This document shows positions 18 to 54,143 of a stretch of 64,000 nucleotides of DNA, one piece after another. The translations under genes and the position numbers were made by a program. This stretch comes from Symbiodinium sp. CCMP2592 (taxonomy: Eukaryota > Sar > Dinophyceae > Suessiales > Symbiodiniaceae): the NCBI GenBank assembly GCA_905221615.1, contig CAJNDT010004713.1, positions 1 to 64,000 of the forward strand, given 5' to 3'. A model generated the notes under the pieces. It saw only the letters and a program-made list of their open reading frames with translations. It did not search any database and was not told the DNA's origin. The first letter of the stretch is position 1; each line of letters begins with the position of its first letter.

Positions 18-486
18 TTCTCAGTAAGAATACTGTGAGTTTGCTGAGCAATGCAGAACAGAGTAAGAAGGCGCTCACCTCTTTTTACTCGCGAAGGATG
101 CTTGAAGTCGGTGCGAGGCAATGCGATGCCCAGTAACGGGAGGAGCGGGGCAATGCGTTGCCGAGCTCTTTTCCCCCAGGGTTGTGGAGGGTGGGTGAAA
201 AAGCTAAAATCGGAAGCGATCCGGGTCAACAGCTTGAGCTAGCAGTGCGGCGCAAGGCGAAGCAATGCAAGCTCACGTACTTACCGAAAACACTGTCGAC
301 CAAAAACAACAAACTCACGACAAGCGTTCTCAGTAAGAATACTGTGAGTTTGCTGAGCAATGCAGAACAGAGTAAGAAGGCGCTCACCTCTTTTTACTCG
401 CGAAGGATGCTTGAAGTCGGTGCGAGGCAATGCGATGCCCAGTAACGGGAGGAGCGGGGCAATGCGTTGCCGAGCTCTTTTCCCCC
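18..486 (-). repeat. Split direct repeats B2-A2-B1 of YR element copy 1
   Basis: Two 160-bp copies of one sequence (18-177 = B2, 327-486 = B1) flank a 132-bp copy of the other terminal repeat (195-326 = A2). A2 and B1 are directly contiguous at AAGCG|TTCTC. This junction is presumably the abutted ends of the circular intermediate and the recombinase crossover site. A 17-bp spacer (178-194) separates B2 from A2. The B copies look identical by eye. Confidence 0.88.
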
Positions 487-25882: not shown

Positions 25883-28873
25883 TCATTTAAGCATTGCGTG
25901 CTGTGCGTCAAGTAGCCGTTGCGGCCACGCGAGTGAGTGATCATGTAATGTGACGCAATGCGATGCGGATGCTAGTTGCGCTAGCGTGACTTCAACTTTG
26001 TCAGCAGTGCGATGCTGAAGAAAGGCAGTGGAGCCCCTGCTGAGCTTGTCGGCCCAAACGTTCTTTTCGCCGGCGAGGTGCTCCACCTCAAACTGCACGC
26101 GGTGCAGATGCGCCCAGGTGGCCGCCAGGCGAAGAAAAGTCCCTAGAGGCTCTGCCGTGCTGAAGAGCTTATTAAGGCCAGACTCTGCGCTGGTATTGTC
26201 GGATGCTGTGGGCAGAACAAAGCGGATCTGTTTGCTGCGTAGCAGTTGCCAAGAGCACTGTGCCAGTGCGAGCTGTGCGAGAGATTCAAAACAGCCAATG
26301 TAAGGCTGCAGGCTGCCTTGCAGTTGCGGCCATTGCTTGCGCACTTCCTCTGCAGAAAAGATGGCGCTGAACCACAGGAAGGCGTCGGCAGTGCTGATCC
26401 AGCCTCCAATGCCCATGCGGTGCGTATCTGCGAATGCATCCGCCGCACTGTAGCAGTGCATGCGTGGTGCTGTGCGCAGCGAGCGAGGCTGCTCATGTGC
26501 AAAACAATGCTGCAGCCATGCCAGGACGAATTTGCTTTCGTGCCGAAGGTGAACTTCAGAGCGATGCGGGTCTGCAAGCCTGAGCCACTGGTGTTTGTGC
26601 GAGGGCGGCACAAGAGGCACATCTGCTTTGCTTGCTATTTTGAGGCTGCCGACCTCAAGTAGTTGGGCATTGCGTGGCAGCCAAGAGCCTGCTGGCGTGC
26701 GGGTGAGTTTTGCGTTGTTGTCAAGGCAATCTAGGAAGGTGCCCCACATGTTCGGTGAAATGCTGTGCAGCGTGCCTTTGCAGCTGTGTAGGTCTTTGTA
26801 GAGCGGTGCCATGAAGGGGCGCATATGTTTACTTAGGGAGGTGGCCCAATTAAGTAGGCCTAGTACACCTTCCAGCTCCTTGCGTTGCACTTTGCTTTTG
26901 CGTTGCAGTGCAATTAGCTGCTCGCGGAGCTTGTGCAATTTTAGTTCGCGGAGCTCAATGGTCTCTGCGTCCGTGCGAATGGTCCACCCGCACCAGGTGA
27001 CTTCCTGTGCAAACTGAGCCTTCTTCCAGCTGATGGGTGCGTTCAGGGCTGAAAGCAGTGCAACTATCAGTGCGGTGGCCATGTCTTTGTCGGCTGTGCG
27101 GAGCAGGGCCAGGAGGTCGTCGACATAAAGCCAGGCTCTATGCGGATAGTCACACAGCAGCGCATGTATGCAGCGCAGTAGAAGGCTACCTGTGCGTTGC
27201 CACCAATATGCCGAGAAGCGTGCCCCGAAGTGGCAAACCTTGTAGTAGTACAGGGAATTGCCAACTCGGAACAGCAAGGTGCCTTGGTCTGCGGGGCTGA
27301 CTTTGCAACATTTATGCGCTGCCTTAAAGTCTAGCGACAGTGCGTGAAGCTGTGCATAGCAGTCATCTGACAAAAATGTGCGCTGCACGTCCGAGGCGTT
27401 GGGCAGTGACACCCGTTCTGGAAGATGCACGGCCGGATTAAGTCCGCACACGGTGCTGTCAAGGACCAGGCGTGGGTCGCGTCCTTCGGCCATGACAATG
27501 TTTAATTTGCCGATTGCAGTGCCCTGCGGCCAGTGGCGCTTTGCGTCGTCTTCGGTGCCTTCAAACTTTGCGACAAAGCCTTTGCGCACCTCCTCCTCCA
27601 CTAGCTCTTGCAGCAGTGCGGGGTTGCTTTCCGCTAGGAACCAATTTCCCCTGCAGTGCTCGAGGGATGCAGGGCTAAAATCGTCTGCAAAGTCTAAGGA
27701 GCTTTGCGTTGTGGGCCACTGCCCGCTGCTTGGCAGGGCTCCAAAAGCACCTGTCGGTACTCCCTCATCAAGGATGATGGGTAGCTGTGCATCTTTATCG
27801 TGAATGGCTTGTGCAAGGTATTGCAGTGCTGTGAGCCGGAAGGGCTGTCCGTCCGAGATTCGGAGAAACTGATTTTTGTCTATGTTAGGTGCCATGGTCT
27901 GATGCGCAATGTCTGCCAAGGCGTTGCGATGATCTTCGCTAAGCGGGTGCGAGTCTTGCCCGGACTGTAGATGCTTAGCAATATGCGAAACGAGGCCGTG
28001 TTTGGTAAGGTATTGCTTAAAGGCAGAGGCTAGCTTTGCTAGGGGCTTGGGCTTACTGCTTACATTATTGGCAGAGTGATCTGCCGTGCTGAACATGCCT
28101 GCTCCATCGCAAACCGCGGGCCTGCGTGGCAGAAAGCAGCGCGGCAGATGCTTTTGCAGCGTTGATGGCTGGATAGGGGCATTGAGGTGCGATGTGCACT
28201 CCTGCGCTGCAAGAGAGAGCATGTGCTGGTATGGATCAGCTTGCTGTGTTGCGCCTGCCAGTGCTGTATGAGTGGAACAAATGATATGCGAGGCGTCGCT
28301 CTGGGGCAGCTTCATTTGTATGCAGTGCACTGCTAACTCTTGGCACAGCTGTGTGTACAGATCTGCAATCTTGTCATCGCAGTGCCTGGGGTACTCGAAA
28401 AAGACCTGACTGCCTTGAAGGTGCGCTGCCCGAAGAAGCGCACATAGTCGGGTGTGCGATGCCAAGTCAAACGATTGTGCAGGAAAAAGGAGCAGTGTGG
28501 CTCCAACCGCTCCGGACCAGACTAGGCTATGCCAGGCAGAGTAAAGTTCATCTTCTATAGTGTTATGCTGTGCCATGGCCTGGTAGCAGAAGCGGTCACA
28601 GCTGAAAGGGTCCTCCGCTATGCTGTGCAGCAAAAATCTGTGCTTGGATGTTTTAGGCTCGGCATCTTCTGCTTCTGATGAGCTGGATGCGGAGCTGTGC
28701 GTAAGGCTGTCTTCTTGCATTTGTGCTGGACTATGCTTACAAGGAGTTGCTTCGGGTTGCTGTGTTTTTGGGCAATGCTGTCCTGACGGTGCCGCGGGCA
28801 CGTGTGCCGGTGCTGTGGGTGTGCCAGGCGTGGCGGCTGAAGTCTGTGCAGCCGGGAGAGTAGGCAAGGGCAA
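25883..28873 (-). CDS. Reverse transcriptase-RNase H of YR retrotransposon copy 2
   Basis: A 996-residue intact ORF. A Ser/Glu-rich N-terminus of about 100 residues is followed by conserved blocks shared with copy 1 (RAAHLQG, HLPERVS). RT motif A is LDFKAAH, the catalytic box is YVDD (about residue 581), and RNase H includes FADTHRMGIGGW (about 810), CFESLAQLALA, SDNTSAESG and GEKNVWADKLSRG. All four RNase H acidic positions are visible. The start at 28873 lies 34 bp after the gag stop, so each ORF has its own ATG. How the downstream ORFs are translated is unknown. Role: cDNA synthesis, leading to a circular intermediate by analogy with DIRS. Confidence 0.88.
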   Translation of the reverse strand: MPLPTLPAAQTSAATPGTPTAPAHVPAAPSGQHCPKTQQPEATPCKHSPAQMQEDSLTHSSASSSSEAEDAEPKTSKHRFLLHSIAEDPFSCDRFCYQAMAQHNTIEDELYSAWHSLVWSGAVGATLLLFPAQSFDLASHTRLCALLRAAHLQGSQVFFEYPRHCDDKIADLYTQLCQELAVHCIQMKLPQSDASHIICSTHTALAGATQQADPYQHMLSLAAQECTSHLNAPIQPSTLQKHLPRCFLPRRPAVCDGAGMFSTADHSANNVSSKPKPLAKLASAFKQYLTKHGLVSHIAKHLQSGQDSHPLSEDHRNALADIAHQTMAPNIDKNQFLRISDGQPFRLTALQYLAQAIHDKDAQLPIILDEGVPTGAFGALPSSGQWPTTQSSLDFADDFSPASLEHCRGNWFLAESNPALLQELVEEEVRKGFVAKFEGTEDDAKRHWPQGTAIGKLNIVMAEGRDPRLVLDSTVCGLNPAVHLPERVSLPNASDVQRTFLSDDCYAQLHALSLDFKAAHKCCKVSPADQGTLLFRVGNSLYYYKVCHFGARFSAYWWQRTGSLLLRCIHALLCDYPHRAWLYVDDLLALLRTADKDMATALIVALLSALNAPISWKKAQFAQEVTWCGWTIRTDAETIELRELKLHKLREQLIALQRKSKVQRKELEGVLGLLNWATSLSKHMRPFMAPLYKDLHSCKGTLHSISPNMWGTFLDCLDNNAKLTRTPAGSWLPRNAQLLEVGSLKIASKADVPLVPPSHKHQWLRLADPHRSEVHLRHESKFVLAWLQHCFAHEQPRSLRTAPRMHCYSAADAFADTHRMGIGGWISTADAFLWFSAIFSAEEVRKQWPQLQGSLQPYIGCFESLAQLALAQCSWQLLRSKQIRFVLPTASDNTSAESGLNKLFSTAEPLGTFLRLAATWAHLHRVQFEVEHLAGEKNVWADKLSRGSTAFLQHRTADKVEVTLAQLASASHCVTLHDHSLAWPQRLLDAQHAMLK

Positions 28874-36024: not shown

Positions 36025-36029
36025 AATGC
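36025..36029. repeat. Target-site duplication AATGC (partner 45617-45621)
   Basis: The five bases AATGC precede the LTR at 36030 and follow the LTR ending at 45616. Five bp is the usual duplication size for copia integrases. Confidence 0.92.
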
Positions 36030-36327
36030 TGCTGATGTACACCGACATCGATCGAATTTGGGGATGCCATGATAAAGCGCACTGGTGTTTTTCTTCGCAC
36101 TACACAAGTAACAACGGTTGGAAGTCTGAGCACTGCTTGAATGTACAAATGTGCTGTGCTACTGTATCCTTCCACACAGCGCTTACTGGCTGCAACTGCA
36201 AAAGACTCTTCGTGGCCCAAGGGGATTTACGTAGCCTTCCCTGTGGACCAAAACATAACGTGTATTCGCGGATCAGAATGCTGCTCCCTTAGCACGCCAC
36301 AACAATCTGGATCTGGCTGCAACAACA
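36030..36327 (-). repeat. 3' LTR of copia element
   Basis: 298 bp, identical by eye to 45319-45616. It carries canonical TG...CA termini and is preceded on the element strand by a purine-rich run. Confidence 0.94.
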
Positions 36328-36371: not shown

Positions 36372-39300
36372 TCATAGTCGATCCCAGTTGTTGATGGTTC
36401 TGGATGCTGCCTGGCGATCCGCTATGTTGCTCCACGAAAGCAAAGTCCGACCTTGTAGGTTTCGATGGCGCCAAAGCCACAACAGGTATTTGTATTGCCT
36501 GACCGTAGGAAGATTTGCCTGGCCATACGTAGATGCCATTGCTCCTCCAAGTCGTGCTGCAAGGTCTCCCTTCAGCCCTGAAGTCTGAAGTCCGTTAACA
36601 CGCAAAGCTTCCCGGAGCTCCTCGCATCTCATCAGTCCAGCTACGTCAACGCTGACCCTCAGGACCTCGGTAGGATCGTCACCTCCTTGGCTTGGTGTAG
36701 GGGAAAGCAGCATCGGCCGGTGATTCTCGCCGGACTGCTCTCTTCCCCTTGAGGGCTGTGTTCTTGGGGGTGTTGTAACCCTCATGGTGGACGGTTGCGA
36801 TATAGGCGACCTCCTCGGACTCGTAGGCGTACTCGGTGTCGTGATGGGGTTGTTCCCCACCGTAGGTTCGACAGCAGCCTCGGCGCGTATGCGCTCTAGC
36901 TCTCGTTCGATCGCCTGCGTCGTAGCATCCCTCAATTTGCGAAGCTTCCTCAACTTCCGCTTGGAAGCTCCTGGGAGCCACTCTTGCGAGAGCTCTGCCA
37001 CAATCCACTTCAGTCCCTCCCATATAACCAGTCCACCCAACACCATTAGGAGAACCATGAATATTCCCGCCATGTCCCAGTCGATGGAGATGCGTCGCTC
37101 TCGGTCAGGTTCCCCCGATGCCATTGTCACCATCAAACAGCATATAGTGGCAACCAACATTTTTTCCGAAACTGCGGCTGTGCTTTTGACTCCATGACCA
37201 TGAACCGGAACTCCATCGCCAATCATGTTCCATCGTTGTAGTAGATCTCGTATTCGTTGTCCCGCCAATGCCTTGGTTAACAGGTCAGCTGGCTGGACCA
37301 GCCCCGGAACGTGGAACCCCTCGATCGCGCCTGCGGTGATCATCTCCTGCAGCCATGCTGACTTTAGTCTGAGGTGACGTGTCCTCCATGAGCCGTTCCC
37401 TGCGCTGGTGGTCAGCGCAGAGATACTGTCGGATCCAACCCTCTTCGTCTCAATCTCCTCCGAGAGGTCCACCAAAAGAGTTTCTATCCCCAGCAAAGCT
37501 ACGGCCCCTTCCAATATAGCTGTCAGCTCCGCCTCCGCCGTTGACAGCGCTATAGTTGACTGGCGCGACGATCGCCATGCAATGGGGTTCTTTCCCCATA
37601 CCACCAACCATCCTGTATGGCTTCTTTCACTCTCCGGCGCGAAGGCGGCGTCGGGAAACATGGTGAGGCTGTTGTCTCCCCCGCGGAAGGACATACGCCA
37701 CGCTTTGGTTCCATATAGGTACCTGATCATCTTTGTTCCCACCTCCATCGCTCGGTACGGGGCCTTAAGGGTAAGCGAAGACAGTAACGAGCATCCATAC
37801 GACAGGTCTGGCCGGGTCTTCTGGGATATCCACAACAACTCTCCTGTGACCCGCTGAGCCTGAGCAACGCCACCCTCATCTGCTTCCATATCCCCGTCTA
37901 TCACGCTGAAGCTGGCGGTCTCCTTGCTTACAGGGATCTTGTCGGACCTCTGGATACCGTAGTTGCGACACAACTCCTCGATGTAGGCCTGCTGTCCCAC
38001 CAGAATCATTGACTCATCATCGGTCATAGACAGCTCCATACCAAGGAACCTGAGTGGATTATCTCGCCGCAAAAAGGTCAACGGACTTGTGGCCCATACA
38101 CTCTGCACCAAGCTGGCCACTTCCTTCACAGCGTGCTCCAACCCAATGATTAACATGTCATCAACATATATGATGATCAACGCCTTCATCTCCCCCGACT
38201 CGTCTGTAACCACCCACCAACATGTTACAGTTCTGCCCTGCTTGAAGCGCCACCCAGACGGCGTAACCATGCTAGCCATCGTCCTGTCGCGGTAGGCCGA
38301 CCAGAGCATTGGTGCCTCCCTTAAGCCGTATAGGGCCCTAATCAAACCCCACAGCTCTTGAGGCAAAGTCAATGATAGCCTCTCCAACACCTTTGGCGGG
38401 CAAACCACAATAATTGGATCTCGCACTGACTCGCCGATCGGGGTGAGGATAAAGGCAGCGACCACATCAATTAGTGCCACCTGCCAACATCGGGAGCGTG
38501 ACATAGCCAATCCTGCCCGCACAGCCTCCGTAGGAGCCGTTTCACAGTAGTAGTCGGACATTGAGCTCGTCGCCATGTTTCCACAAACCACTAGTCGAGC
38601 CTTCCTTCGGAACCATGTTTTCTTGTCGGCTGGGTCAGCTGCATCGTTCGGCTTGATGGTATAGACCAGCTTGGTTGGTAGACGTTGAACACCCTTCTTC
38701 TGAAGCCACAGCGCCCTCTCTGGTGTCCCGGGCATTAGTCTCCGGATTGCTACTTCAATCCCCTTGACCTCCTTGGCGATGGCTTCCTTCCACTCATCCA
38801 GGTGCAATAGTGCCTCACGTGGATCCACTGTGTAGGTCACCTGGAGGGGCTCCGTGAGGTTGGTCAGGATCTGCTCCACGTCCTTCGTGTAGGTCACCTC
38901 CGTTTTGTTCACTCTGGGAAAATCCTGACGCAGGCTCCCCTTTGACGAGCTCCCCACTTTGACGCGTCCCTTTTCTGCTTCGACAAACATTTCCCAATCA
39001 TCGTCGCTCAAGCCGCCGTCCTCATCGGTGTTTGTGACCTGCTCCTCCTGGACCTCTACCCTGTCCAACCGGGGGCCTGACTCTTGAATCTTCACAAAGT
39101 ACTCTGGCAACTGTGACAACGGTGTTGGGTAGCCGTAGGAGTCCAGGGCCTTCACATCTTCATAGGAGAGTTTCCCCAGGCTGTCCGGGGTATAGGCTAT
39201 GAGATTGATGCGAGTTCCCTCCCATGGCAGAACTTCGTGTGCTCGCCTTGGATCTAGCTCCACGGTCCTTCCCTCTTTCATCTCGTGGACCTGTCCATAG

Positions 39301-42300
39301 TGAACTCGCCCTTGCGGGTCGGCCCGCTGTAGAATATCGCCCACCAGAAGATCACCAGGCCGTAGCTCTACCCACAACGCTCCACCTCGCTCCGGGGTCC
39401 TGATTGGGACTATATAGTTCTTGGTGTTGCTGTCGTTGTTCGTGTCCTTGTGGTAGCCCCGATCACAGTTCTTCGAAACCATAATAGAGGTAAAGGTCGC
39501 TTCCGGGGAGAACTCCAATATGATCCTGGACAACAGCGTTCCCAGTTCAGGATGGTCGGGTAGGCCCTTCATCCATCCCACACTCCCACCATGCCTATAG
39601 ACTCCGAACTTCTTGTCCTCAAAGAAGCCAGCTTCACCAAGTTCTCCAACGAGTTCCGTTGCCTTGGTCACGTCCCAGTCCTCGAGGATAAGCTTTGCCT
39701 TGGTTTTAGCATATGCTCCCAGCTCACTTTCATTGAGGGCCAGAACCTTCATCTCGACGTTGCTAGTTGGAGTTTTGGCCACAACTCTCCTCCTGGGTTT
39801 AGGTGGGTCTACCACTTCCAACTCTTCTTCGGGAGGTCCTGGGTCATATAGTCTAGGTCTCACATGGAAAGTATGTAGGAAATGGCCCTTCTTTGCTTCC
39901 GACTCCGGAACATGTACAACATGGCCTCCTTCAAGTAGATTGCTGAGTCCAACATAACGTCCTCGGATCCACTTGGTCTCGAACGCCTTGTCACGTCGAC
40001 GGGGTCCTTGAGCATCAAAGGCCTTCTCCTTCACTAGGACCGCCGCTCCATAGGGGGCAATAAGTTTGGACTTCCATCCCAATACTCGTGCCCTCTGCTG
40101 TGCCACCGCTGTTTCCGCCGCCGTGGGCCACAAAGTCGTAGGCAATGAACTCCCCAACAACAGCGTCCTCGTCCGGTCCTTGACCCATCGCACTGCCGCC
40201 TCTGCGCGCCCATTTCCTTGAGGCACGCCTGCCTCCGACCACGAAGCCCTTATGTGTCGATCTCGTAGCCATCCACGGATGCTGTGACTGAAGCATTCTC
40301 CACGATCGGCATGAAACCGATAAGTAGGAAGCCCGTGAGCATCGAGGTAAAGAACAATGTCCTGAATCGCACTTTTCACTTCTGCACCTGCGTTGGTCTT
40401 CAGGGCCTTGGCGAACATGAGTACCGTACTCTCAGGAGGTTCGCAGTCTGGACGCAATCCTCCTTCACGATCGTGCCCGCCATGGTCTGGTTGGTCCTCC
40501 TCATGTGGAACGTCTTCATCATCGCCTGGAAGTGATGGCTCGTATTCCGAGCACTCGTAGTCTTTCAGGATCTCCTTCTGCTTCTCGGTAGCTCCGATAA
40601 GGCTAGGTTGTTCCACGACTTGATCACCGTCACCTTCACGACCTTGCTCACCTGGCACATCTTCTTTGCTATCACGACCTTGCTCACCTGGCACATCTTC
40701 ATCAAAAAACGGATCCCACTCTTCACGTGGTAGTAGTCGAGAAGGTGCTTCTGTCCCTCTGCTTTGCTCTGGTCCTTCGTCCAGCTTGTGGCTATTGTCC
40801 CTCTCTTCACGCAGTGGTAGTGGAGAAGGTGCTTCTGACCCTTTGCTTTGCTCTGGTCCTTCGTCTGGCTTGTGGCTATTGTCCCTCTCTTCACGTGGTA
40901 GTAGTTGAGAAGGTGCTTCTGGCCCTTTGCTTGTGTCTTCAACATCCAAGGGATCTTGAAGACCATCATCCTCAGGTGGTTTCCGGCCACTATAGGACTT
41001 CACGAACTCCTTCGGCAGAGTGTACTTGCCCACCATCAAGTAGCGGAGCCCCTTACCCTGAGTGCCCTTCGAAGTACAGTCCAAGCCCGGCTTCACTGGC
41101 CCAGCGATGTCAATCGTGAGGGTGAACATATCCGGATGACGAACTCGAGCGTGCCGACGCCCTGTTCCTCGGGCCAAAACACAGGTTAGGCATTCCCGAT
41201 TGTAGTCGAGGTGGTTGCTATCGACATGCCTTTTCCACTGCGCTGCCGTCATAGGACATAATCGCGGGGTAGTAGCGGGATGTCTTCTCCAAAACGTCAT
41301 CGCCATCACCACGGCCTTTGTAAGACCCTCCGACCAAGTCCCGCTCGTATCGCTTCCTCCTTCTTCCACCGGACACTCCAAGCCTTCACCCTGGAGCCCC
41401 TGTAGGTAGTAGACGTTGGTCCCCAATGTTGTAGGCAACGACCCATCTGATCCCATCGCCCGTTGGTCAAAGGTGACCTTTGTCATCTCGTACTCCTCCT
41501 GGAATGACTTCCACATCGAGGTATCCCACAACGCTCTTCTCCGCGGCGCTGTTCCCAACGAAACATCACCTGGGACTCCAGGCGGATGTTCCAACATGAA
41601 GGCGACAGGTCTTCCTCGATCCGCCCCTCGGGCGTTGAGGGCCCGTCCCTCTTCTGCCACTGCATACAACCACAACATCCGAGTGATCGCTGCCAGGGAC
41701 TTGTTGTCCCACACCACTTCGTCATTGACTTGGCGTCCCAGGCTCGACCGCCCCGGGGGCCCTCCTATCAAGGCCTCTATTCTCCCATGCATTGCGCCCC
41801 ACAACAACAACTTCCACGTAGAAGCTCTCATCACATCATGGGCGCGGTTCCTTTGGACATCCAGTTCTACCACAACGGTGTCGCCCTCATCGAGTTGATA
41901 CACCTGAAAGTGCCCCGGGCAGCCGGCGTAAAGGTGGATTATCCACCGTCTTGAGGTCCACAATCTCCTCCTCTGGGGTCTGCTGAGGTACTCGATGTCC
42001 TTGAAGACCTTCCACTCGTCGTTCATCAGGTTCTCCTGCACCAGGCCTCCCACACACTCCCCGGGTAACTCTGACAACATCGGCGAGTCCCTTATCGCCC
42101 GTAGTCCTGCCTCCATAGACCCATTGCTCACATACGACCTCAAATGGCTCCTCCACGAATCTTCCATCATGAGCTCAGACGCGTCCACCACATCCTGCGT
42201 GACCGCCGTGGCGTTCTCCAGCATCTCTCTTTTTCGGTCCTCCAACCTTGAAATCATTGCCAAGGCTTCTGCCTCCTGTATCAGAGGACACCCTCCACAA

Positions 42301-45300
42301 ACACCAAGTGACCGCGACACTCCATCAGGATCGATAAGGAAACATCCCCTTTGAGACCAGTCCAAAGAGTAGCCAAGGGTCTTCACCAGTTCTCCTAAGG
42401 GGACTATCGTTTGTCCTTGAGTCACCGTCGTGGTAGTGGATGAAGTTCTGCTCCTGGGTGGCATTAACAAAGAACCTCCGGATCCCAGCTTCATTGTCAG
42501 AGAGTTGTTGCCGGCGAGCTGAACTATGACCTCCTCCGATTGCAACCACTCCTCCTCGTCGTGCGCATTCCGAAGGCAGTGGGTAGCACCCGAGTCGAGA
42601 AGAGCCGTAGTCGACTTGTCCATTGCAGACACCCGAACATCACAAAGGCTCAGGACCCGAACTTCCGCCTTGGTCTTCTCAGGGGAGCTTTCGCCATCAG
42701 CCGGGGCCTGCGAGTGGATCACCTGCTGCGCCGCCTGAATCAGTGTCTCAAGGGTCCATGGAGTTCCTTGCACCGTGCCCTGGCTTCCTGAGGATAGCGA
42801 TGGTGCCGTAGACATAGTCGCCAAGCTGGGGGTAGTAGAGGAAGAAGTGGTAGCGGAGCCCTTTTCCCCGGTGGGATTTTGTCGTGATGATGGTTTACCA
42901 ACACCACAATCTCGAGCTCGATGACTTTCACTCCCACACTTCAGGCATTTTCTCGCTCGCACCTCCTTTTCCATACCACTCATTGAGTGGCTGTAGGCAC
43001 ACTTGTCCCCTCTTTTACATCCATTCGGCTTTGCGAAGTACCTGCACAACTCCTGGCTCTTCTCCCGGCCCTTTGGTCCCTTGGGCGATGCCGTAGGCGA
43101 AGACGCGTCCATTGCTTTCAAAGCCACCCCCGTACTCTGGGATGGTGTAGCTCGCTGGGACCCAGCGATCGCCTCCAACTCCGCCTGTAGGTGTCTTTGG
43201 TAACCCTGAACTTGTTCCAGTGTTGGTTGTCCATCCAACCTGTAGGTCGACCTCAGCATGCTTGTTCGGAACGATGCATCGGCCGAAGAGTTGATCGACT
43301 TCGCGGTTAGGGCCTGTAGCCCCCTGCTCATGACCAATGGGTCCGGTGGACTCATTCCCATTGTCCGGCACCGACTCAACCACCTCGGCCAACTCCTGAC
43401 CTCTGCTAGAACCGCCTCCACGCTGTCGCCTGCAAGATACTCCTGCGGAGACTGCAGCCTCTTCAGCACTTCTTGTCTCTCCGCTGATCCGCCCGGCTGG
43501 AACCAAATGAACAGCCGAAACAACATCGCGGGAGCCCTCTGAGTCAACTGCTGCGCCACCATGTCACCCTTGATCTCCTGTGGCATTGATCCCAGAAGCA
43601 TTGTACAGGCTCTCGCATTCATCCGGCTCCACGGGTCCTGACACAGCTCGTCCATGCCTTCCAGGGTGATTGCTAACCTCTCCAAATGAGAGGCCGCAAG
43701 CCATCGGCTGTAAGCGGCTCGGACCACCATCAAGGCTGCTCCCCACCACTGGCCCGACTTCTCGCTGACATCCGTCATCGCAGTGGTAGTGATTTCCAAC
43801 CAGTCGCTGAATCTAAGAGATGCCTCGGCGCCTCCCTTGTGATCTGGTAATTGTGCCAAACTCGTGGTCCCGGCCTTCAGGGATTCTGCTGGCCCAGATG
43901 CCGAGGTTTTTGTAAGGGCCTGCGCCTGTAGTTGCTGAAGTTGCTGCATTCCTCGAGCTATGGCTTCCAGCATAGGAGTCTCTGCCCTTTGCCCCTGACT
44001 CTGGGGCGGTGGCGACGGCGTGCGTTGTCGAGGACCTCCCAGTAATGATCGCAACAAACCTCGGGGCTCAGGAGGATGCTCAGGACTTGGAGGCATAGCG
44101 CTGCTTGAGGCTGGTTCCATTGGTGTAGGGACTCCGGTATAACCCCCTTGTTGGTTCCCGAAACTTGAAGAAGCTATTCGTGGATCACCCAATAGCCCGC
44201 CATGACCTGATCGTCCGCAAGGGCCTGATGCAACGGTAGGGGGATCACTCAATAGACCGCTGTGACCTGATTGTCCGCAAGGGCCTGATGGAACTGTAAC
44301 TAGATTGCCCAACAGACCGCCGTGACCTGAGCGCTCACAAGGGCCTAATGCAGCTGTAGGAGGATCACTCAATAGACCGCTGTGACCTGATTGTCCGCAA
44401 GGGCCTAATGCAGCTGTAGCGGGATCGCTCAATAGACCACCGTGACCTGATTGTCCACAAGGGCCTAATGCAGCTGTAGCGGGATCACTCAATAGACCGC
44501 CGTGACCTGATCGTCCACAAGGGCCTAATGCAGTTGTAACTGGATCACCCAATAGACCGCCGTGACCTGATCGTCCGCAGGGGCCTACCGGAGCTGTAGT
44601 TGCAGACTGCAGCGCATCCCGACTTCTTCTCACTTCATCCAACTCCCGCTGTAGCTGCTGATTTCGAGACTCTGAGTCTTCCAGAAGCAACCTTATCCCA
44701 GACAGCTGTCTCTGAACCTCCTGTTGTATAGCCTCTGCAGGTACTGAGCTCGATGGCGGAGTGCTTGGTCGTGGAAGTGGTAACCGCCGCGACCTCTGCG
44801 GGGACCTCAGAACGAAAGGTCGTCCTCCCGGCGGTGTCTCGCCGGTCAGCGGGCTGGGAGCCAGCTGATCATGTCCCACTGCCAGGTACGAACCCAACCG
44901 GCTCACCCATCGTGGTAGTCCTTCCATGACGCCCATCCAATTATTTTGACCCACATTCCCCACTCCTCTTGACCGCGGGGTAAAAAACTCATATGTAGCC
45001 GCCGTCTCCTCGCCTGCCGCCGCTATTCCAGCTCCAGGTCTGCCACCCAGGTCAGGGATCGTTGGTGGCATCGTTGCCTCCACCTGGCCCTGCATGGCTG
45101 TGGCCTCCAGCGAGGCTGGTGGTCGACTGGTAGAAGACGCCGGAGCATCCAGGAGCCGCGATGCCTCCATGGAACTCAAAGGTTCCTGCGCGGCTTGCAT
45201 TCCCTCCGCTCTCGGGGCTACGGAACCAGTGGCCCCATTGCCACCATTGAGACCGCTTGATTGCGGTCCGTCTGTGCCGTTCAGTTGCGCAGTCGGCTGA

Positions 45301-45314
45301 GCTTGGGCGCTCAT
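36372..45314 (-). CDS. Copia Gag-Pol polyprotein with dioxygenase-like segment and C-terminal extension
   Basis: 2980 residues from MSAQAQP at 45314; the frame is open upstream to an ATG at 45509 inside the LTR. Order: Gag with seven 20-residue repeats (about 244-383); CCCH finger CX8CX5CX3H (about 757) and CCHC knuckle CX2CX4HX4C (about 788); protease LLDSGATHCL (about 900); integrase zinc part NHLDYNRECLTC (about 1365), first Asp in TIDIAGPV (about 1397), an acidic insertion, then HADRGECF (about 1666) and GRAEAAV (about 1700); a 2OG-Fe(II) dioxygenase-like segment with GYHKDTNND (about 1955) and RRAHEVLPWEGTR (about 2027); RT with ALYGLREAP and YVDDML (about 2383); RNase H with STAEAEL. 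The C-terminal extension has two hydrophobic segments (about 2720 and 2746-2771) and a SAP-like motif. It is unusually long for copia. The absence of stops argues it is functional. Confidence 0.9.
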   Translation of the reverse strand: MSAQAQPTAQLNGTDGPQSSGLNGGNGATGSVAPRAEGMQAAQEPLSSMEASRLLDAPASSTSRPPASLEATAMQGQVEATMPPTIPDLGGRPGAGIAAAGEETAATYEFFTPRSRGVGNVGQNNWMGVMEGLPRWVSRLGSYLAVGHDQLAPSPLTGETPPGGRPFVLRSPQRSRRLPLPRPSTPPSSSVPAEAIQQEVQRQLSGIRLLLEDSESRNQQLQRELDEVRRSRDALQSATTAPVGPCGRSGHGGLLGDPVTTALGPCGRSGHGGLLSDPATAALGPCGQSGHGGLLSDPATAALGPCGQSGHSGLLSDPPTAALGPCERSGHGGLLGNLVTVPSGPCGQSGHSGLLSDPPTVASGPCGRSGHGGLLGDPRIASSSFGNQQGGYTGVPTPMEPASSSAMPPSPEHPPEPRGLLRSLLGGPRQRTPSPPPQSQGQRAETPMLEAIARGMQQLQQLQAQALTKTSASGPAESLKAGTTSLAQLPDHKGGAEASLRFSDWLEITTTAMTDVSEKSGQWWGAALMVVRAAYSRWLAASHLERLAITLEGMDELCQDPWSRMNARACTMLLGSMPQEIKGDMVAQQLTQRAPAMLFRLFIWFQPGGSAERQEVLKRLQSPQEYLAGDSVEAVLAEVRSWPRWLSRCRTMGMSPPDPLVMSRGLQALTAKSINSSADASFRTSMLRSTYRLDGQPTLEQVQGYQRHLQAELEAIAGSQRATPSQSTGVALKAMDASSPTASPKGPKGREKSQELCRYFAKPNGCKRGDKCAYSHSMSGMEKEVRARKCLKCGSESHRARDCGVGKPSSRQNPTGEKGSATTSSSTTPSLATMSTAPSLSSGSQGTVQGTPWTLETLIQAAQQVIHSQAPADGESSPEKTKAEVRVLSLCDVRVSAMDKSTTALLDSGATHCLRNAHDEEEWLQSEEVIVQLAGNNSLTMKLGSGGSLLMPPRSRTSSTTTTVTQGQTIVPLGELVKTLGYSLDWSQRGCFLIDPDGVSRSLGVCGGCPLIQEAEALAMISRLEDRKREMLENATAVTQDVVDASELMMEDSWRSHLRSYVSNGSMEAGLRAIRDSPMLSELPGECVGGLVQENLMNDEWKVFKDIEYLSRPQRRRLWTSRRWIIHLYAGCPGHFQVYQLDEGDTVVVELDVQRNRAHDVMRASTWKLLLWGAMHGRIEALIGGPPGRSSLGRQVNDEVVWDNKSLAAITRMLWLYAVAEEGRALNARGADRGRPVAFMLEHPPGVPGDVSLGTAPRRRALWDTSMWKSFQEEYEMTKVTFDQRAMGSDGSLPTTLGTNVYYLQGLQGEGLECPVEEGGSDTSGTWSEGLTKAVVMAMTFWRRHPATTPRLCPMTAAQWKRHVDSNHLDYNRECLTCVLARGTGRRHARVRHPDMFTLTIDIAGPVKPGLDCTSKGTQGKGLRYLMVGKYTLPKEFVKSYSGRKPPEDDGLQDPLDVEDTSKGPEAPSQLLPREERDNSHKPDEGPEQSKGSEAPSPLPLREERDNSHKLDEGPEQSRGTEAPSRLLPREEWDPFFDEDVPGEQGRDSKEDVPGEQGREGDGDQVVEQPSLIGATEKQKEILKDYECSEYEPSLPGDDEDVPHEEDQPDHGGHDREGGLRPDCEPPESTVLMFAKALKTNAGAEVKSAIQDIVLYLDAHGLPTYRFHADRGECFSHSIRGWLRDRHIRASWSEAGVPQGNGRAEAAVRWVKDRTRTLLLGSSLPTTLWPTAAETAVAQQRARVLGWKSKLIAPYGAAVLVKEKAFDAQGPRRRDKAFETKWIRGRYVGLSNLLEGGHVVHVPESEAKKGHFLHTFHVRPRLYDPGPPEEELEVVDPPKPRRRVVAKTPTSNVEMKVLALNESELGAYAKTKAKLILEDWDVTKATELVGELGEAGFFEDKKFGVYRHGGSVGWMKGLPDHPELGTLLSRIILEFSPEATFTSIMVSKNCDRGYHKDTNNDSNTKNYIVPIRTPERGGALWVELRPGDLLVGDILQRADPQGRVHYGQVHEMKEGRTVELDPRRAHEVLPWEGTRINLIAYTPDSLGKLSYEDVKALDSYGYPTPLSQLPEYFVKIQESGPRLDRVEVQEEQVTNTDEDGGLSDDDWEMFVEAEKGRVKVGSSSKGSLRQDFPRVNKTEVTYTKDVEQILTNLTEPLQVTYTVDPREALLHLDEWKEAIAKEVKGIEVAIRRLMPGTPERALWLQKKGVQRLPTKLVYTIKPNDAADPADKKTWFRRKARLVVCGNMATSSMSDYYCETAPTEAVRAGLAMSRSRCWQVALIDVVAAFILTPIGESVRDPIIVVCPPKVLERLSLTLPQELWGLIRALYGLREAPMLWSAYRDRTMASMVTPSGWRFKQGRTVTCWWVVTDESGEMKALIIIYVDDMLIIGLEHAVKEVASLVQSVWATSPLTFLRRDNPLRFLGMELSMTDDESMILVGQQAYIEELCRNYGIQRSDKIPVSKETASFSVIDGDMEADEGGVAQAQRVTGELLWISQKTRPDLSYGCSLLSSLTLKAPYRAMEVGTKMIRYLYGTKAWRMSFRGGDNSLTMFPDAAFAPESERSHTGWLVVWGKNPIAWRSSRQSTIALSTAEAELTAILEGAVALLGIETLLVDLSEEIETKRVGSDSISALTTSAGNGSWRTRHLRLKSAWLQEMITAGAIEGFHVPGLVQPADLLTKALAGQRIRDLLQRWNMIGDGVPVHGHGVKSTAAVSEKMLVATICCLMVTMASGEPDRERRISIDWDMAGIFMVLLMVLGGLVIWEGLKWIVAELSQEWLPGASKRKLRKLRKLRDATTQAIERELERIRAEAAVEPTVGNNPITTPSTPTSPRRSPISQPSTMRVTTPPRTQPSRGREQSGENHRPMLLSPTPSQGGDDPTEVLRVSVDVAGLMRCEELREALRVNGLQTSGLKGDLAARLGGAMASTYGQANLPTVRQYKYLLWLWRHRNLQGRTLLSWSNIADRQAASRTINNWDRL
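40640..40935 (-). repeat. Acidic in-frame repeats inside the copia integrase core
   Basis: About three units (EAPSQLLPREERDNSHKPDE, GPEQSKGSEAPSPLP) and two copies of EDVPGEQGR lie between the first and second catalytic Asp of integrase. The acidic, disordered-looking insert makes the D-D spacing about 270 residues instead of about 60. Confidence 0.8.
44166..44585 (-). repeat. Coding 60-bp tandem repeat in copia Gag (7 copies)
   Basis: Seven in-frame 60-bp units encode GPCGRSGHGGLLGDPVTTAL and variants (GQSGHSGLLSDPPTAAL). Each has one Cys and one His with constant spacing. The regular 60-bp register shows recent amplification without breaking the frame. Confidence 0.9.
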
Positions 45315-45318
45315 AACC
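45300..45318 (-). promoter_or_regulatory. Putative primer-binding site of copia element
   Basis: Directly after the 5' LTR, the minus strand reads GGTTATGAGCGCCCAAGC. It only partly resembles the initiator-Met tRNA type site (TGGTATCAGAGC). The ATG at 45314-45312 (MSAQAQP) overlaps it, so primer site and start codon share bases. Confidence 0.5.
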
Positions 45319-45616
45319 TGCTGATGTACACCGACATCGATCGAATTTGGGGATGCCATGATAAAGCGCACTGGTGTTTTTCTTCGCACTACACAAGTAA
45401 CAACGGTTGGAAGTCTGAGCACTGCTTGAATGTACAAATGTGCTGTGCTACTGTATCCTTCCACACAGCGCTTACTGGCTGCAACTGCAAAAGACTCTTC
45501 GTGGCCCAAGGGGATTTACGTAGCCTTCCCTGTGGACCAAAACATAACGTGTATTCGCGGATCAGAATGCTGCTCCCTTAGCACGCCACAACAATCTGGA
45601 TCTGGCTGCAACAACA
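45319..45616 (-). repeat. 5' LTR of copia element
   Basis: 298 bp. On the element strand the polyprotein frame is open through much of this LTR, with an in-frame ATG at 45509 inside it. Confidence 0.94.
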
Positions 45617-45648
45617 AATGCTGAAAGGCTGCGAGTATGCAGTGCGTG

Positions 45649-46091: not shown

Positions 46092-46660
46092 GCGTTCCCA
46101 GCCGATAGTCTCGGGAGGATAGGTTTTTTAGGGACAGTACAGCGCTTTCGGCTGAGAGAGGGTCTTATGTCCGACAAGCTTTCGGCTTGGGAAAGCCAAG
46201 TTTTAGGGACGGCACAGCACTTTTGAAGCTCAGGTGCCCTAAAGTGCTGTACTGTCCCTAAAAGTTGGGTTTGGCAGAGTCGAAATTTAGGGACAGTACA
46301 GCACTTTTGAAGCTCCAGTGCCCTAAAGTGCTGTACTGTCCCTAAAATTTGGCTTTCCCAAGCCATAAGTGCTGTACTGTCCCTAAAAAACCTAAAAAAC
46401 CTATCCCCCAGCAACCTTCAGGCGTTCCCAGCCGATAGTCTCTGGAGGATAGGTTTTTTAGGTTTTTTAGGGACAGTACAGCGCTTTCGGCTTGGGAAAG
46501 CCAAATCTTAGGGACAGTACAGCACTTTTGAAACCCAGGTGCCTTAAAGTGCTGTACTGTCCCTAAAAGTTGGGTTTGGCAGAGGCCAAATTTAGGGACA
46601 GTGCAGCACTTTTGAAGCTCCAGTGCCCTAAAGTGCTGTACGGTCCCTAAAATTTGGGTT
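46092..46660. repeat. Hairpin-unit repeat, right flank of YR element copy 2
   Basis: Same family as 24690-25279, with units at about 46200-46264, 46287-46347, 46507-46570 and 46592-46650. It includes the uninterrupted version of the copy-2 insertion site, CCAGCAACCTTCAGGCGTTC, at 46409-46428. Confidence 0.87.
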
Positions 46661-46719
46661 TGGAGAAGCAGAATTCAGGGACCATTCTACTCTAAGTTTC
46701 TTGCTAGAACCGTGAATGC

Positions 46720-51109: not shown

Positions 51110-54100
51110 ATGGCGCTCCCAGATTCACGCCAGCAGCGTTTGCCAAAGCCCCGGAGCCGGAGGTGTTTCCGATCCACTCTGACGGTGAAGAGGACGAGGC
51201 CCAAACCGTTTAGGGATGACGAGCCACGCCAGGCGGAGCGGAACCCGCTTCGGGATCCGCCCAGCCAGGAGGCGAAGAGGCACAGCGTGCAAAGCCACTT
51301 CGAGCACCGCCTGTGCTTTCTGGCTGTTGGTGTTTTTCAGCTTGCACAGGCAGCTCAAGCAGGCCAGCTCAGCGCAGCCCAGCTCAGCTAGTCCAGCCCC
51401 ACCCGGTCCAAGCTCAGTCCAGCCCAGCCCAGCCAGCCCAGCCCAGCAGGCCAGGCCAAGTCCATCCCAGCCCAGCCTTGCCCAGCTTGCTTGGAGGGGT
51501 CGGAGCCTCAAATGGTTGCAGAGCACAAGGTGACACATATCCCTTACAGGTCGTGGTGCCCAGTATGTGTGGCTGGAAGAGGGCGAGCCTACTCGCAACA
51601 CCACGAGGGCCGTGCCTCAAAGGCCATCTTCTACAAGCGCTTGATCTTGAAGACTGACCAAGAAAAACGCGATCAAGGCATTGGGGGCAGCTGTGAAGGC
51701 TGGTTTTCCAGAGGAGCTGACTCTGGAAGAGTCACCCAAGGGAGACTCTCACGGGCAGAGTAACGGCACAGCTGGGAATGCGGTGCAGCGCGTGCAGGGA
51801 CAGGTGCGCACGATGAAGTATGCCCGGGAGCAGAGTGCTGGAGGAGAACTGTCCAAGGATTCGGTCATCTTCCCTTGGATGATCGAGTACGCAGGGGTGC
51901 TCCACAACCTGTTCTCAGGAAGACAGCGAGGGCATGACACCGTTTCAGAAGCTGAAGGGCTTGGCAAGTGGCTCTTCCAAGCTTTGGAGAAATCGTGGAC
52001 TACCGCCGAAGAGCGAAAAGCAAGCTTGATGCCAGATGGCAGGAAGGAGTCCACCTGGGACTGCGGCTTACAAGTTCGGAGAAGATTATCGGGACACCCT
52101 CGGGTATCCTGGTGGTTCAGTCTATCCGGAGAAAGCCTGCAGACAAGCAGCACAATCTTGAGATGCTGAAGGCTGTGAAAGGGACCCCTTGGCAGCCCAA
52201 ATCCCGAGAAAAGTACGAACGCTGACGCAGACAGACTCCCGGAGCCTATCGCGATAGATCCCGTGGTCGAGCAAGCAGAGCTTCCGCCGAAACCTGGAGA
52301 AGCAGTTACCGCTTCGGAAACTGCTTCGGCGAGCAAAAGGAAGAGCGAAAACCCTGGAGAGGTTCGAGGGGACCGAGCGGAAGCTCTAAGAGGAAGGCTG
52401 AAAACGTCGAGAGAGTGACTGAAACGCTTATCGCTGAAGAGCGGAAGGTTGGATTGAAACCCTGGAGGGAGTCGAACAGCCTACCTGCGACCTGGTTGAT
52501 GGTCTAGTGGAAGAGGTTCTTGCGGAGACCTTCTACGTCGACCTCACTGGGAAAGAGCTTCCAGCTGAAGGTGTCAAGGCAGTCCGGGCAGAGGAAGTGA
52601 GCGTCATCAGGCAGATGGGAGTGTGGGAAAGTCATACCCCGTCCTGCGAATGAGAAAGTGATTGGTTTAAAGGGGGTGGACGTCAACAAGGGGACGCCTG
52701 TCGCTCAGGAACTCAAAAGAGCCCGCGGGCCGCAGCAACCAGACGACCAGTCCACTTGGAGTTTTTTCTGCAATGCCGCGACTCAGTTCTCTTCGGGCGC
52801 TGTTCACCTTGGCGACGACACAGCGTATACTCAACACTCGGGGAAAGCTGTCACCCGTAGGGTCTGGTGGAGAAGTTTGCCTCATGTTTCTGGATGTGAA
52901 GAAAGCTCATTTTTGGAGCTCCGTGCCACCGTGCGCCGAAGATTGCTTGTTGAACTTCCGCCAGAAGCTGGAGAGGGGCGAGACAAGGTCAGACTTCTGA
53001 AGCGTTCCTTGTATGGGACCAGAGATGCACCTTCCAATTGGGAGCAAAGCCATCAAAGATGCTCTGGAAGCCTTTGGGCTTCAAGCAAGGGAGAAGCAAC
53101 CCATGCCTGTACTTCCACGAGGAGAAGTCTTTGCGACTCAACGTCCATGGCGACTTCACAGTGGTTGGAAGTTACAACGAGCTCAAATGGCTGGCAACTG
53201 AGTCAGCAAAGTTTGGACTGTAGAGACAAGAGGCATCCTGGCAAGACCCGGCTCGGAGCTGCCAGGCCTGATTTATCAGATCTCTGTCTTAAATCGCCTA
53301 GTAACGTGGACCCATGAGGGCATCGAGATGGAGGCCCAAGGCATGTGGACTTAGTTTTGGAGCAGCTGGGTCTGGAGAGAGGAGTTTCTGTGACCACTCC
53401 ACTGGTCAAGGTGAAAGAAGAGGACATGGACAAGACTCCACTTGGTACTGCTGAAGCAGCTTTGTACCGTTCTATCGCTATGCGGATAGGTTATCTGTCC
53501 ATGGACAGGCCAGACTTGCTAAGAGCCGTCCGCGAGTTGGCGAAAGGACTGAAGGAGCCTCAACAACACCATTGGGGTCTCCTGAAGAGAGCTGCAAGAT
53601 ATCTCCGAGGAGCTCCTAGGCTGGTGCAATTGATTCCGTATCAAGAGCACTTCACGAGCATCAATGCTTGGTCCGACCATGCTGGGTGCATTATAAGACT
53701 AGGAAAAGCACGACTGGAACTGTGATCCAGCTCGGAGAAGCAACAGTGAAGACAGCAGCCAAGGGGCAAGCTGTGATTGCCCTGTCCACTGGTGAAGCAG
53801 AGTACTATGGCTTGATTTCAACAGCATCGACCGCTTTGGGCGAGCAAGCAATGATGGCAGATTGGGGTGTAAAGCTGTCTGTCAACATAGCTATGGATGC
53901 CAGCGCAGGCATATCCATTGGTGGCGAGGGCTAGGAAAGGTCAAGCACATTGATACCTGCTATCTATGGGTGCAAGAGATAGTGGACCAAGGAAGGATAC
54001 GCCTGAAGAAGGTCAACACGCAAGACATGCTGGCGGACCTCATGACGAAGCCTCCGGACGGCCAAACTGCTACGAAGTTGCTGGGTCGAATGGGCTACAC

Positions 54101-54143
54101 CGTCAGGTCTGGAAAGCATGAGCTGGCCTTAGGGAAGGCGTGA
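51110..54143 (+). pseudogene. Decayed copia-type polyprotein relic
   Basis: Pieces of Gag-Pol in several frames on plus: the integrase zinc region HIPYRSWCPVCVAGRGRAY (51535-51600), integrase-like KDSVIFPWMIEYAGVLHN (51855-51915), RT pieces from 52660 to 53200, connection GYLSMDRPDLLRAVRELAKGL (53490-53550), RNase H GEAEYYGLISTASTALGEQA (53790-53850), and the copia ending VNTQDMLADLMTKP (54017-54058). At least five frame changes or stops are needed to follow it, and the YVDD box is not visible. No LTRs were identified. It is unrelated in detail to the intact element at 36030-45616, so a second copia lineage is present. Confidence 0.8.
51350..51490. repeat. CCAGC-type low-complexity tract
   Basis: Irregular CCCAGCCCAGC repeats (also read as Ser/Pro/Ala/Gln-rich peptide) inserted just before the integrase zinc region of the copia relic. 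Confidence 0.75.

Follow-up and report, generated by a model that had tools for sequence, protein, structure and literature searches.

A putative TET/JBP-type dioxygenase domain in the polyprotein of a Symbiodinium Copia retrotransposon

Can a long terminal repeat (LTR) retrotransposon carry a base-modifying dioxygenase of its own? The question is raised by a Copia element on the minus strand of a 64,000-nucleotide stretch of Symbiodinium sp. CCMP2592 (positions 1 to 64,000 of contig CAJNDT010004713.1, assembly GCA_905221615.1; hereafter the window), in whose polyprotein a first-pass annotation had placed an Fe(II)/2-oxoglutarate (2OG) dioxygenase-like segment between the integrase and reverse transcriptase (RT) modules. 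Judged from its predicted structure, this segment is almost certainly a real dioxygenase fold with an intact active site, and we lean towards reading it as an intact TET/JBP-type Fe(II)/2OG dioxygenase domain in the pol of a young, multi-copy Copia family.

Active site, conservation and predicted fold of the domain

The polyprotein is encoded by a single uninterrupted open frame of 3,045 codons (36375–45509, minus strand, as for all coordinates of the element below). All the peptides on which the first-pass annotation relied were located in this frame, namely FTSIMVSKNCDRGYHKDTNN at residues 2006–2025 (39435–39494), GGALWVELRPGDLLVGDI at residues 2042–2059 (39333–39386) and RRAHEVLPWEGTRINLIAYT at residues 2088–2107 (39189–39248); the plus-strand reading of 39180–39640 contains stops. 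The placement between integrase and RT was correct, but the domain is larger than proposed: by conservation, structural model and fold searches it extends over residues 1930–2140 or so (39090–39722), and the earlier range of residues 1890–2080 was off. The HxD motif was found as H2020-K-D2022 (H at 39450–39452, D at 39444–39446), whose His and Asp are predicted iron ligands. The predicted third ligand is H2091 (39237–39239), and the Arg described nine residues past it is R2100 (39210–39212), the predicted 2OG-binding residue. In 2OG dioxygenases, the Arg or Lys that binds 2OG stands some 9–12 residues after the distal His.

Taken as a bare pattern, HxD-(40..130)-H-x8-R has one instance in the polyprotein, but 29% of 300 residue shuffles also yield one or more (mean 0.36). 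Because of this frequency the motif by itself is weak evidence, and the same figure is what could be said for a chance motif in an ordinary integrase–RT linker. Against such a coincidence stand the conservation of the domain, its ratio of nonsynonymous to synonymous substitution rates (dN/dS), its predicted jelly roll and the existence of homologous free-standing proteins, which leave it a negligible probability; from conservation, codon evidence and predicted fold, the domain goes well beyond a chance motif.

A database search with the domain region gave 54 polyproteins at E ≤ 1e-3 (36–81% identical), those with a named organism being from Symbiodinium. In the resulting 55-row alignment, His2020 was found in 55/55 rows, Asp2022 in 54/55, His2091 in 54/54 and Arg2100 in 53/54, one row being gapped at the last two positions. 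A profile search added 61 shorter proteins, many of them fragments, in whose 63 aligned pieces the covered positions held the first His in 41/44 (R in 2, C in 1), Asp in 43/44 (P in 1), the distal His in 33/34 (Q in 1) and Arg in 31/34 (S in 2, K in 1). Median identity among the 54 polyproteins was 53% for the oxygenase domain, 53% for RT, 61% for the integrase core and 38% for the linker after the domain.

The assembly of the organism itself (1.098 Gb, 5,383 contigs) contained at least 150 scored matches to the domain (of 4,722 first-look candidates), four of which had internal stops and 44 of which lay within open frames of at least 3,000 amino acids (aa). All four active-site residues were kept at 30/30 of the best loci, that of the window included, and at 20/20 further loci selected from three other groups, with Arg at the R2100 position in 50/50 copies; all six Arg codons were used there among the 30 loci. 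Nei–Gojobori dN/dS had a median of 0.15 and a maximum of 0.40 in the 37 usable of 435 pairs (0.02 < dS < 1.5, at least 120 codons), which are non-independent, most of the other pairs being saturated. Two young groups were recognized, with median nucleotide identities over the domain of 99.7% (45/45 pairs, ten loci) and 99.2% (21/28 pairs of equal length, eight loci). Purifying selection on the domain is shown by these codon comparisons, and by the copies counted the Copia family is young and multi-copy. The first-pass annotation had called the domain not decayed, pointing to an uninterrupted frame and identical LTRs; both were seen, and the low dN/dS and the young open copies bear the statement out.

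The AlphaFold2 (AF2) model of the domain (predicted local distance difference test, pLDDT, 88) is a double-stranded beta-helix in which HxD, H and R occupy the expected places, H2091 being the first residue of a beta strand. Two outcomes had been named in advance as fatal to the proposal, the lack of such a helix and non-conserved His, Asp and Arg in related copia elements. The predicted structure does have the helix, matched to 2OG enzymes, and His/Asp/His/Arg are conserved both in the 55-row alignment and at the loci of the same genome.

Links to TET/JBP enzymes and the choice of subfamily

A remote sequence link leads from the copia domain to Tet_JBP (PF12851) through intermediates. The first of these is a family of free-standing dinoflagellate proteins, of which 21 were aligned (P0114 and P0118–P0137, about 300–510 aa, including Karlodinium veneficum and Effrenium voratum). 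Their profile matched the copia profile at E 1.8e-18, and H, D, H and R were found in 21/21; weak matches to Tet_JBP were obtained for 5/21 (best E 0.046) and to 2OG-FeII_Oxy_3 for 1/21 (E 0.086). They also have a SUMO-like C-terminal stretch, with profile matches to a tandem SUMO2 construct (E 4.3e-10) and to single SUMOs (1.5e-4 or weaker). These oxygenases are candidates for a host base-modifying enzyme.

The second intermediate came from searching the Tet_JBP model against the same genome, where four loci were found (best 29.6 bits, cut-off 34.9), and against 14 control genomes, where no loci were found. One locus, when read out, was another retroelement (L035:3611–7459, plus strand, contig C485), in which one open reading frame (ORF) shows a recombinase-like motif and another is gag-like. 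Its 1,283-aa pol has, in this order, the oxygenase, immediately next to it a methyltransferase-like stretch containing PPC, and RT (by motif). We term it DIRS-like from these motifs; in Pfam it matched RVT_1 at E 0.012, and Phage_int_SAM_1 (E 0.42) was the sole match of the other ORF. When its oxygenase was cut out, the match to Tet_JBP had E 2.7e-7 (30.4 bits), compared with 7.6e-6 for the complete ORF; to the copia profile it matched at E 1e-18. In trees, whose root is not known, the free-standing family stood apart from the retroelement domains with support of 100, a split that fits one capture. The DIRS-like domain was placed beside P0055-like copia domains (support 81, branch length 2.8), possibly as an artefact, and we conclude no direction of transfer.

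Some database names deserve comment. The PHROGs family phrog_274, 'DNA endonuclease V', matched 8/21 of the free-standing proteins (best E 4.6e-5), and this name may be a misannotation, because a BFVD protein with the same name fits the oxygenase model. NCBIfam gave five single-member matches with unrelated names. Viral contigs yielded 81 and 2 stretches with the pattern, none confirmed as a relative, and no relative was found in the phage records searched.

By structure comparison with VIA-align, the first four rows for the oxygenase model were TET, TET, FTO and AlkB, the leading rows being NgTET1 on DNA. These rows, the sequence chain to Tet_JBP and the methyltransferase-like fold elsewhere in the polyprotein make us fairly confident, from models and sequences, that the domain acts on nucleic acid, as had been suggested; the part of the evidence that does not agree is the closeness of PHD2 by Z-score and the first Foldseek match. 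A TET/JBP type is favoured to a lesser degree over an AlkB-type or other enzyme.

Several observations weigh against the assignment as a whole. Searched by sequence, the copia domain gave no match in Pfam or in the PDB; its 16-member alignment gave no significant Pfam match, and the profile was without a PDB match. The curated cut-off of PF12851 was not reached, relatives attaining at most 30.4 versus 34.9 bits. In VIA-align, FTO (9.3) and AlkB (9.2) were tied with TET, a bacterial 2OG oxidoreductase scored 9.0 and the prolyl hydroxylase PHD2 8.7, which is 1.2 Z units under the top row and 0.5 under AlkB, and models with no clear match typically score 7 to 8. Foldseek E-values were only around 1e-4, and the first match was a prolyl hydroxylase; query-normalised TM-scores were low (0.19–0.40 among the matches listed), and unrelated folds such as the sigma-1 receptor and cupins also appeared. 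In addition, all 54 homologs were found via the oxygenase domain and so give no measure of Copia elements that lack it, and copies and homologs are related and non-independent. Because TET, FTO and AlkB are tied, with the oxidoreductase at 9.0 and PHD2 at 8.7, the subfamily and a nucleic-acid substrate can be called probable at most.

The PHD2 and Foldseek results call for considering a captured protein hydroxylase (prolyl/asparaginyl-type), or another 2OG hydroxylase with a non-nucleic-acid substrate, that would modify Gag, integrase or a host protein. We regard this as unlikely in view of the first four VIA-align rows, the sequence chain that leads to Tet_JBP, the DNA-methyltransferase-like fold in the same polyprotein and, by motif only, the methyltransferase-like stretch after the domain in the DIRS-like element. 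An AlkB-type repair enzyme or RNA/DNA demethylase, serving alkylated or damaged element RNA or cDNA, would agree with the tied FTO and AlkB scores and with the BFVD matches of the model, which include plant-virus polyproteins; plant RNA viruses, too, have AlkB domains in their polyproteins. No AlkB family was seen in the Pfam scans, whose filters drop most weak matches, and the sequence chain runs to Tet_JBP, and this alternative too appears quite improbable.

The methyltransferase-like partner and the rest of the element

The same polyprotein contains, between protease and integrase, a C5-DNA-methyltransferase-like domain (about residues 1165–1375, 41385–42017). Its AF2 model (pLDDT 88) has a DNA methyltransferase (DNMT) fold by prediction, the PDB fold matches listed being DNMT, DIM2 and M.HhaI entries, and E-x-D is conserved. 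At the position of motif IV (PC), the window has GGPPG (41751–41765), the catalytic Cys being replaced by Gly. This Cys was absent in 49/50 rows, the window included, and present in 1/50, and it was found in 0/10 copies from other groups in the same genome; on this residue evidence the domain is disabled. As to the corresponding stretch of the DIRS-like element, hhalign gave a probability of 1.7, not significant, against the copia stretch, with PPC/PPG and ENP/EHP in register between the two; Pfam DNA_methylase did not match it at E values up to 1, and the PDB gave nothing credible for it (one match, E 0.63).

The loss of the catalytic Cys shows that such loss occurs in the element, and it would lend some plausibility to a catalytically dead dioxygenase fold kept, like its partner, as a structural binding module. 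The oxygenase behaves in the opposite way to that partner, its four active-site residues being kept in nearly every copy, and the synonymous codon turnover at R2100 also speaks against this idea, which we hold to be very unlikely.

The remaining architecture is that of Ty1/Copia, with the order gag, protease, integrase, RT and RNase H (protease, integrase and RNase H by motif), an RVT_2 match, LTRs and a target-site duplication. The two LTRs (5′ LTR 45318–45616, 3′ LTR 36029–36327) are identical over 299 nt, and AATGC is found on either flank (36025–36029 and 45617–45621); this 5-bp duplication depends on reading the LTR as TG...CA, one base in, so that the exact boundary is inferred. The open frame starts inside the 5′ LTR, and its first ATG is residue 51 (45357–45359), leaving 2,995 codons. 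From the identical LTRs, the flanking AATGC and the unbroken frame, the element looks intact and recently inserted.

Gag contains a CCCH zinc finger, which passed the Pfam cut-off, and a CCHC knuckle (motif) at 42906–43055, and in the gag region tandem repeats with a 60-bp period (20 aa) were observed over 540 nt (44112–44651). LLDSGATHCL (42573–42602) is the aspartic protease motif. The integrase region (39810–41312; motifs DIAGPV, HADRGE and GNGRAEA) is split by an acidic repeat linker that was detectable in 17/54 polyproteins; the Pfam rve model matched relatives only, below its cut-off. RT lies at 37950–38696 (RVT_2, E 1.3e-15), followed by LSTAEAEL (37524–37547), the RNase H motif. In the tail C-terminal of RNase H lie a segment that is hydrophobic and membrane-like and, in addition, a SAP-like domain (36549–36635 and 37005–37082); the hydrophobic region had a match in 39/54 related polyproteins, and SAP scored just below the Pfam cut-off in the polyprotein (23.1 versus 23.9 bits).

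No second copy of the element was found within the window, where its own polyprotein matched elsewhere only at the LTR repeat; two relatives gave weak matches (31–34% identity) at 53704–54101. Two other large open frames, 25883–28873 and 671–3361 (both minus strand), had RVT_1 matches below cut-off and are probably further retroelements. About 560 nt outside the 5′ LTR there is a cluster of direct and inverted repeats (46178–46661; 87-nt arms, 94% complementary).

Proposed function and comparison with known systems

If the domain is the TET/JBP-type oxygenase that we favour, it might be released together with integrase and RT, or be active as a pol fusion, and move with the cDNA of the element; its place between integrase and RT in pol is the reason for suggesting that it acts on this cDNA or on the insertion site. 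The reaction would be hydroxylation of a pyrimidine methyl group. The likeliest substrate would be thymine, giving 5-hydroxymethyluracil (5hmU), and the next 5-methylcytosine (5mC). Thymine as the main substrate is proposed tentatively, because 5hmU is abundant in dinoflagellates, where it replaces 12–70% of thymine (PMC6723414), and in Breviolum shows enrichment at repeats (PMC11071213). The disabled methyltransferase-like domain could be its partner in binding DNA or presenting the base, and the benefit may be that a new cDNA or insertion site gains the modification state expected by the host or sheds a silencing mark; the mark might conceal the copy, silence it or take methylation away. A putative dinoflagellate TET/JBP homolog reportedly makes 5hmU, which is said to be linked with transposon silencing. 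The dinoflagellate enzyme for 5-hydroxymethyluridine is the subject of Li et al. (2024, PNAS, doi 10.1073/pnas.2400906121). It is a doubtful extension that Copia and DIRS-like elements, of unrelated orders, both carry a TET/JBP-type dioxygenase with a methyltransferase-like domain, and that in Copia a dead methyltransferase would be the targeting subunit of a live thymine/5mC oxygenase that writes 5hmU on the cDNA of its own element, a self-marking that would contribute to the 5hmU at repeats of dinoflagellate chromosomes. If a Copia family that is young and multi-copy does have a TET/JBP-like domain under selection, this would show that retrotransposons are able to carry one, and an element-borne enzyme, as possible writer or eraser of the 5hmU mark, would make the relation between transposons and modification directly testable.

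Compared with TET/JBP enzymes (NgTET1, CcTET; PF12851), the copia domain shares the predicted jelly roll with HxD/H/R, NgTET1 in the first structural rows and a DIRS-like relative that matches PF12851 at E 2.7e-7, but it is itself without a Pfam match, lies inside an LTR-retrotransposon polyprotein and has a substrate that is only inferred here. The free-standing P0114 and P0118–P0137 have the same domain by profile comparison but are not retroelement polyproteins. Fungal DNA transposons and Helitrons encode TET/JBP (PMC12730594) and are alike in being mobile elements with such a dioxygenase, differing in element class; that survey, restricted to fungi, came upon no retrotransposon with TET/JBP and speculates on the reason. 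SymbioLINE-Dnmt and SymbioDIRS-Dnmt3 (PMC5890265) are likewise dinoflagellate retrotransposons with a captured DNA-modifying domain, a DNA methyltransferase, located in pol for SymbioDIRS. This 2018 paper gives Symbiodinium Copia as free of any DNMT domain, and the word dioxygenase is absent from its main text; a 2025 paper (PMC12344493) cites it as a source for streptophyte and dinoflagellate LTR Copia and DIRS elements with DNMT3. We found no report of a TET/JBP-like domain in an LTR retrotransposon in the open-licence literature, repeat databases not being searched. Compared with PMC5890265, the Copia element here has a remote Cys-less methyltransferase-like fold together with an intact dioxygenase. 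Mobile elements that have captured a base-modifying enzyme are already known, and the present one is, as far as could be seen, the first LTR retrotransposon with a TET/JBP-like enzyme, alongside a Cys-less methyltransferase-like fold.

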